Assembly: GCA_011523655.1 (NCBI GenBank) | Contig: WTGH01000041.1 | Span: forward strand, 1-64,000 | Direction of reading: 5' to 3' | Length of the DNA stretch: 64,000 bases | Source of the DNA: Rhodospirillaceae bacterium | GTDB lineage: Bacteria > Pseudomonadota > Alphaproteobacteria > Bin65 | Shown: in pieces, positions 39,177 through 42,832 of the stretch | How positions within the stretch are numbered: the stretch's first letter is position 1 | Layout of the letters: every line of letters begins with the position of its first letter | Notes under the pieces: generated by a model | The model's database searches: none | What the model saw: the letters and a program-made list of their open reading frames with translations, nothing else | What the model was told of the DNA's origin: nothing | Translations under genes and position numbers: made by a program

Positions 39177-40856
<1,680 letters not shown>

Positions 40857-41118
40857 GGTTTCGAAGGTTCGGGGGCGCAGTTCGGTGAAGGCGGCGGGTT
40901 GCGGCGCGAGATAGATCGGAACGGATGCGCAAGGCAGGCGCGGCGATGTCGCGGCGCCCTTCGGCACGGCCATTTTGCGCCGGCGCGCGTTTGTCGATGT
41001 TCGAAAAGGCCGTCTTGAATGGCGCAACCAGGCGGCTTACGCGGTGCGCGATCCGAACAGTTGCCGGTGCGGCGAAGACCGCGTAATTGTCGAGCGGCCG
41101 CACGGGAAAGCCAGGAAA

Positions 41119-42225
41119 ATGACCCTCTACGCAGATTCGCAATATCCGGTGCGAGAAGATCTCGACGCCGTTCATGCCAGACATCTCGATCAGTTGGCAG
41201 ACCCCGGCACCTGGGGTACCGGCGCGCAGCGCCTGGCGGTCGCCAGAGAGGTTCGCCAGGCGTGTTATGACGCGGGTACGCAGGAAGAACCGGAAGACAC
41301 CGGCCCGCTGAGCAACGTCAAACTGCCGGAGGCGGTCTGCGCGACGGTCCGGAAACTGGCTGTCGCGCCCAGGGATTTCGACGAGGATTCCTATGAAGAA
41401 GCCAGGGACGGCGGTCTCAGCGACGAGGAATATGTCGAAATTGTCGGCATCGTATCGCGCCTGACCTGCATGGATGTGTTTGCCCGCGGCATTGGGGTTC
41501 CGCTACGTCCCCTGCCGGCCGCGCGCGACGGCCGTCCGTCCCGGGTCCGCCCCCGGGTCGCCAGGAAGGAAATGGCCTGGGTGCCCACCGTTCCGAACCT
41601 CCCCGAGGGCGGCGAGGAGGCCGCCGAGATGTACGGCGAGGACTATCGGCCCTACATCATCCGGTCGGTCAGTCTGGTGCCGGATGAAGTGCGGCGGCAT
41701 CTTGAACTGGAAGAAGTGCAATACCTTCCAATGAAGAGTATTTTCATCAAGGATTTTCAGCATCATGAGGGGTTCACACGCGCCCAGGTCGAACTGATTG
41801 CGGGCCGGGTATCCGCCCTCAACGAGTGCTTCTACTGAACAGCGGGCCACGCCTGGTTCCTCCGTGAGAGTGGACGCGTAACCGGCCTCACCGTCAATCT
41901 GGCGGCACTGCTCGACCCGGATCAGGACAGCGGGGTGCCCGGCGGCAGGGAAATCCTGGCCTTTGCCGATGCCGTCATCGGACCCGACCGGGCCGCACTG
42001 GACCGGGCGCGGCAGAACCTCGCCGACGCCGTCGGGCCGGTGGCGGTATCGGCGGCGGCGGCCATTGCCGCGACCTTCACCAAGAACGATCGCATGGCCA
42101 ATGGCACCGGCATTCCGTCCGAGCTGAAAATGTTGCGGAATTCCAGGGAGATCCGGGCGGAACTCGGGTTAAATGTCTTCCGGTCGTCGGCGAGCACGTT
42201 CAGGCACTATCCCGACGACAGATAG
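41119..42225 (+). CDS. AhpD/carboxymuconolactone decarboxylase-like protein, candidate selenoprotein (UGA at 41836..41838 read through)
   Basis: RVSALNECFY[UGA]TAGHAWFLRESG; same frame open to 42225 (TAG). Confidence 0.7.
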
Positions 42226-42253: not shown

Positions 42254-42832
42254 CTACTTCTCGATATAGCCGAGCGTGATCGGGTGCCCCTTTCGCTGTT
42301 CTTCCGCAGCCCCGGTGTGCTTTCCCGAGTTCCAGCCGACGGGGCGCAGCACGCGCTCGGCGAAGTCGATCGACTCCTGGTCGGTGACCGTTGCGATGGT
42401 ATCGTTCCAGCGGTTCAGGAAGCCGCCGACCGCGATCACCGCCAGTATCTCGATGATCTGGTCGTTCGAATAGTGCTTGCGCAGTTCGACGTAGTTCTCC
42501 GGTTCGACGGCGTTTGGCGAAACGCCCGCCGCAAACGCCAGGTCGAGGGCCGCCCGCTCGGCATCCGAAAATTCTGGAGAGGTCTGATAGGTCCAGAGCG
42601 CCTGGATTCTCTCATCCGCGACTCCGAGCTTATGGAGGTGGTAGGAGCCGTGGGACTGGCAATGCAGACATCCGCTTGCCAGGCTCGCGGCCGTGAAGAT
42701 CAGCTGTTTGAGTTCTCCGTCGATGCCGCGGCCCGGAAAGACGAGCCTCAGGAGATCGTTCACCATCTGCCGCAGTTCGGGCCAATGGTGCATCTCGAGC
42801 TGTTGCCGGCTTTCATATCCTGTCGCTGCCAT
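42254..42832 (-). CDS. carboxymuconolactone decarboxylase/AhpD-like protein, CxxC form
   Basis: IFTAASLASGCLHCQSHGSYHLHKLG. Confidence 0.88.
   Translation of the reverse strand: MAATGYESRQQLEMHHWPELRQMVNDLLRLVFPGRGIDGELKQLIFTAASLASGCLHCQSHGSYHLHKLGVADERIQALWTYQTSPEFSDAERAALDLAFAAGVSPNAVEPENYVELRKHYSNDQIIEILAVIAVGGFLNRWNDTIATVTDQESIDFAERVLRPVGWNSGKHTGAAEEQRKGHPITLGYIEK

Follow-up and report, generated by a model that had tools for sequence, protein, structure and literature searches.

A predicted selenocysteine at the second redox position of an AhpD-like protein from a Rhodospirillaceae bacterium

An interrupted frame in a known selenoprotein family

Does the UGA at positions 41836-41838 of this 64,000-nucleotide stretch of DNA (the window) encode selenocysteine (Sec), or does it break the gene in which it lies? 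It is the single in-frame stop of 41119-42225, a frame that stays open beyond it for 128 further codons, up to the TAG terminator at 42223-42225. On rechecking the letters, we found the frame, the UGA, the NECFY context and the 128-codon open tail to be as described in an earlier annotation made without database searches (the sequence-only reading); the context reads NECFY-U-TAGHAWFLRESGRV. Read through, the CDS (41119..42225, + strand) gives a putatively tandem AhpD-like protein of 368 residues including one Sec (U240; 41836..41838, +), from an ATG start with AGGA immediately 5' of it to the TAG stop. Orthologue alignments begin at residue 1, in line with this start. Standard gene calling stops at residue 239, one short of the predicted catalytic Sec, and a table-11 ORF listing gave a 5' piece at 40975-41838 (with an upstream TTG start) and a 3' piece of 96 codons. 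The locus is a clear example of a shortened gene call that conceals a predicted working enzyme.

The read-through product belongs to NCBIfam NF041238 (AhpD_rel_CFYUT, alkylhydroperoxidase-related (seleno)protein), against which it scored 377.8 bits where the curated cut-off is 175 bits, with residues 11-355 aligned to model positions 1-356 of 357, across the UGA. Residues 237-241, CFYUT, form the C-x-Y-U-T motif of the family with the UGA at U. NF041238 is the 'hypothetical protein 1' selenoprotein reported from the Sargasso Sea in 2005 (PMC1088965), the family link being given in PMC13188914. The window gene is thus a member of a selenoprotein family on record since 2005, and its kind is not new. 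The literature searched yielded no biochemical study of the family and no paper on Defluviicoccus together with selenoproteins. Four NF041238 members are encoded in the genome (on contigs C1, C15, C17, which carries the window gene, and C70), each with one TGA. From the family match across the UGA, the Sec machinery and the conservation of the codon, we infer, in agreement with the Sec candidate of the sequence-only reading, that this UGA is read through as a genuine Sec codon, with a probability of about 0.96.

The UGA lies in an AhpD-like active site

The C-terminal half forms an AhpD/carboxymuconolactone decarboxylase (CMD) domain with the CxxU motif (41644..42222, +). Pfam CMD (PF02627) matched residues 216-252, across the UGA, at 23.5 bits against a gathering threshold of 23, and PDB matches of this half were 6k40 (E 2e-13), 3c1l and 2oyo, with AhpD itself (1gu9) at E 0.005. 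The models TIGR00777/TIGR00778 were missed (24.6 versus 27.8 bits for ahpD_dom, 14.6 versus 191.95 for ahpD); because these scores fall under the cut-offs, we call the protein AhpD-like rather than AhpD. AlphaFold2, run with Cys at position 240, returned a pLDDT of 92.4 and a pTM of 0.93, with blocks after the UGA at ~89-97.

The active-site motif C237-F-Y-U240-T-A-G-H244 (41827..41850, +) is preceded by E225, and none of E225, C237, Y239 and H244 varies among the 55 aligned genes. The spacing E225-x11-C237-x-Y239-U240-x3-H244 equals Glu-x11-Cys-x-Tyr/His-Cys-x3-His, as in the proton relays of Mycobacterium tuberculosis AhpD (Glu118/Cys130/His132/Cys133/His137) and PA0269 (Glu36/Cys48/Tyr50/Cys51/His55) (PMC3141380). 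The proposal that the UGA sits at the second catalytic Cys of AhpD therefore holds at the level of individual relay residues.

Upstream lies a degenerate AhpD-like repeat at about residues 34-132 (41218..41514, +). Aligning the N-terminal half with the C-terminal half by hhalign gave P 8.8e-5 and a probability of 59.8% and placed the main clade's N-terminal CxxC on the CxxU; this suggests with moderate confidence that an internal duplication produced a tandem AhpD repeat. The N-terminal CxxC is present in all 44 sampled main-clade genes and in 0 of the 11 genes of the window clade, which has 100/100 support in the tree. Given this support and the missing CxxC, the window gene is a line of its own rather than a recent duplicate of the paralogue that neighbours the sel genes. 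The tandem appearance, together with the loss of the N-terminal CxxC in the window subclade, looks like a small new point.

Most likely, the product is an AhpD-like protein that depends on Sec and works as a hydroperoxidase or a disulfide adaptor. C237 and U240 would form a thiol/selenol redox pair in the C-terminal AhpD-fold domain, with E225, Y239 and H244 as the proton relay, and the selenoprotein would either reduce a hydroperoxide or serve peroxide defence as an adaptor for disulfide exchange. We regard such peroxide/disulfide chemistry as probable. A Sec protein on this fold could instead perform reductive dehalogenation or other thiol chemistry, as in the debrominase Bmp8, or serve as a sestrin-like sensor: the AhpD-like entries returned by Foldseek include Bmp8 (6ohi/6ohj), Sestrin2, in which AhpD folds are likewise in tandem, was weakly matched over its full length, and the four paralogues suggest substrate diversification. 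However, the best sequence matches are AhpD and peroxidase-related proteins, every Foldseek E-value was above 0.001, and Sestrin2 gave no close superposition (TM ~0.41, rmsd ~13-15 Å), so that a non-peroxidase function appears unlikely. A tentative scheme is that NF041238 proteins are tandem-AhpD selenoenzymes in which a two-centre redox relay normally joins the CxxC of the N-terminal part to the CxxU of the C-terminal part, and that the window clade has become one-centre, with another electron donor or substrate; we would lean against this scheme at present.

Genomic neighbourhood

The selenoprotein gene stands alone between an ABC-F ATPase gene and a CMD gene, and no operon partner explains its substrate. 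The divergent ABC-F ATPase gene (39177-41027, -) is kept beside it at least in the closest orthologous locus. The convergent neighbour (42254..42832, -) encodes a Cys-type CMD/AhpD-like protein (CLHCQSH). It keeps this place next to the selenoprotein gene at each of the 6 orthologous loci, across which it is 93-97% identical. Its relation to NF053654, 'YciW-related (seleno)protein', is weak, at 62 bits against a cut-off of 310. A similar arrangement occurs in a genome of the same family (L044:3136-3678, -), where a CMD gene adjoins a different NF041238 paralogue and runs opposite to it; its product is 37% identical to that of 42254-42832.

The genome encodes a complete Sec machinery

The sequence-only reading had named a genome lacking the Sec machinery as evidence against Sec. 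In this genome (4.27 Mb in 70 contigs, 96% complete) the machinery is complete. Profile scores were 547 bits for selA, 405 bits for selB, whose product carries SelB beta-barrel and winged-helix domains, and 268 bits for selD; the tRNA-Sec scored 72 bits and has the anticodon UCA. All four lie inside C15:44914-50560. Weak selB and selD model signals also occurred in control genomes, presumably from EF-Tu and PurM-type relatives, with 2 of 14 passing each cut-off; the matches in the genome itself are far over the cut-offs. One NF041238 paralogue lies beside selD (C15:43658-44722), and selD encodes a fusion with a pyridine-nucleotide oxidoreductase domain ahead of the SelD part (Pyr_redox_2 + AIRS; L079:2310-4604, -, on G000:C15), with tRNA-Sec, selB, selA and the NF041238 paralogue as neighbours. 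We rejected a nested selC-in-selB arrangement (PMC8124441), as the tRNA-Sec lies ~80 nt beyond the end of the selB frame. Further Sec paralogues are found away from the sel cluster (L024, G000:C1:56047-57108; L047, G000:C70:77574-78617).

Across the sample, selA was present in 27 of 27 NF041238-bearing genomes versus 56 of 385 alphaproteobacteria overall, a difference whose Fisher P of 3e-26 is inflated by relatedness, as the genomes are not independent, though many taxonomic families are represented. Decoding of the UGA as another residue, through Trp or Cys recoding or near-cognate read-through, would escape our analysis in one respect, the inserted residue not being visible to computations. 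It is nevertheless very improbable given a tRNA-Sec with a UCA anticodon alongside SelA, SelB and SelD, the limitation of NF041238 to selA-bearing genomes in the sample, the correspondence of the motif to the AhpD CxxC, and a conserved SECIS-like hairpin.

A conserved hairpin follows the UGA

A stem just after the UGA, GCG-GG-CCAC...GUGG-A-CGC, had been put forward as a possible part of a SECIS element. This proposal did not hold up: the stem is the minimum free energy (MFE) structure of a short stretch, with z 0.07 versus shuffles, and across 9 distinct orthologues and close relatives it pairs in 82.9% of cells versus a shuffle mean of 83.2%. A hairpin with the core CUC-CGUGA-GAG fits better as the SECIS candidate. 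This predicted bacterial SECIS hairpin (41856..41875, +) has a 7-bp stem with a bulged U (41871) and a 5-nt loop, CGUGA (41863-41867), in which G is at loop position 2; the loop begins 24 nt after the UGA.

In the window clade, positions 21-40 from the start of the UGA follow G-U-U-C-C-U-C / CGUGA / G-A-G-(U)-G-G-A-C; over 9 distinct sequences, pairing holds in 95% of cells. At the same place the other clade has N-N-G-C-U-C / (C/A)G(U/G)NN / G-A-G-C-N-N, with 94% paired over 27 distinct sequences and outer pairs that vary (CG, UG, AU, GC; UG, UA, CG). RNAalifold recovered the hairpin unaided, and the loop G is invariant. In the C70-type paralogue (L047) the motif reads CYYU and the loop AGGUU.

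Codon use at the hairpin is strongly skewed: CTC is used in 46/47 genes, CGT in 39/47 and AGY in 47/47, although outside this region CGT accounts for ~8% of the Arg codons of these genes. Codon 250 specifies at least six different amino acids across the 47 sequences, yet its third base, which opens the 3' stem arm, is G in every one of them. The top eight of 196 testable codon columns for synonymous conservation (242, 243 and 247-252) lie directly after the UGA. Searching the 4.27 Mb for TGA-N21-CTCMGKNNGAG gave 5 matches, 4 of them the four paralogues; the reversed control gave 0. We judged the fifth (C20:80872) to be chance, its TGATCTCC context being unlike the family and, by eye, an acyl-CoA-synthetase-like coding region.

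The bSECIS model calls for a 3-9 nt loop with G in the first two positions, an upper stem of 4-16 bp, a loop 16-37 nt after the UGA and an MFE of at most -7.5 kcal/mol (PMC13188914). The hairpin agrees in loop size, G position, stem length (7 bp, one bulge) and 24-nt spacing. In isolation (24 nt) it reaches -5.9 kcal/mol, short of the -7.5 limit, and a 39-nt stretch with a second stem reaches -12.1, so that the energy limit is attained only if flanking pairs are counted. The local hairpin of the window sequence showed no excess stability over synonymous recodings, the stem showed no covariation in the window subclade, and in the main clade compensatory changes occur at one pair only. As thermodynamic tests against shuffles and recodings are uninformative for the window sequence, the case for a SECIS element rests on conservation and placement. 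In the mechanism we propose, SelB would bind this hairpin, 24 nt beyond the UGA at 41836, and deliver Sec-tRNA(Sec) to that codon; translation would then run on to the TAG at 42223.

The UGA is conserved and the tail is under selection

Full-length NF041238 members in the order sample had exactly one TGA each (30/30), as did class-wide matches over the cut-off (51/51), and in the codon alignment of family genes the UGA column is TGA in 55 of 55. The class and phylum genome samples contained no Cys form of NF041238 over the cut-off. Five named MAGs, from Defluviicoccus spp. and an alphaproteobacterium, carry orthologues with 85-89% identity across residues 1-367/368; in a congeneric genome (G005) the identity is 97-98%, and the UGA is the same. 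By the Nei-Gojobori method, dN/dS of the window gene against the five 85-89% orthologues was 0.13-0.16 upstream of the UGA and 0.16-0.32 downstream, which argues that the tail is translated and constrained. A tail without homology or selection had also been named as evidence against Sec; we found all 128 codons to be homologous, conserved and under purifying selection. In one genome, two tandem NF041238 genes each have an in-frame UGA and a SECIS-like hairpin (L076; G305:C9:214157-216428).

Although TGC and TGT are one base from TGA, and AhpD relatives of solved structure have Cys at the U240 position, a recent pseudogene of a CxxC protein, arising by the TGC-to-TGA nonsense mutation that the sequence-only reading had kept as its alternative, or by sequencing error, is excluded because all 55 aligned genes, from many families and independent genomes, have TGA, as do three paralogues in the same genome, and because selection continues downstream of the UGA in a genome with the Sec machinery.

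The genome is of the Defluviicoccus type, a group of alphaproteobacteria known from wastewater sludge, and NF041238 is multi-copy in genomes of this group. As the family occurs only in selA-bearing genomes of the sample and has no Cys form over the cut-off, it may be a main reason why these bacteria retain the Sec pathway. Two points are worth keeping: the genome has four Sec paralogues, and the window clade has lost its N-terminal redox motif.

Comparison with known systems

The layout of tandem AhpD folds resembles that of sestrins (Sestrin2, 5dj4), with a weak full-length fold match (the TM and rmsd given above) and without a significant sequence match; the likeness is an analogy only. Relative to M. 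tuberculosis AhpD (1gu9/1knc) and PA0269 (2o4d), the proton-relay residues are at the same spacing, but the window protein has a predicted Sec for the second Cys and apparently two repeats per chain, and sequence similarity is limited to the core helices. The best solved relatives of the C-terminal domain are the TIGR01926 peroxidase-related enzymes (6k40, 3c1l, 2oyo, 2prr), which have Cys and about half the length; the score against TIGR01926 was 43.2 bits, under its cut-off of 81.8. The closest likeness is to NF041238, or 'hypothetical protein 1', in the full-length match over the UGA, the CxxU motif and the position of Sec. Within this family the window gene groups with the 10 sampled genes nearest to it in a clade apart from the rest, in which the N-terminal CxxC is lacking and the candidate SECIS stem has a bulged U.
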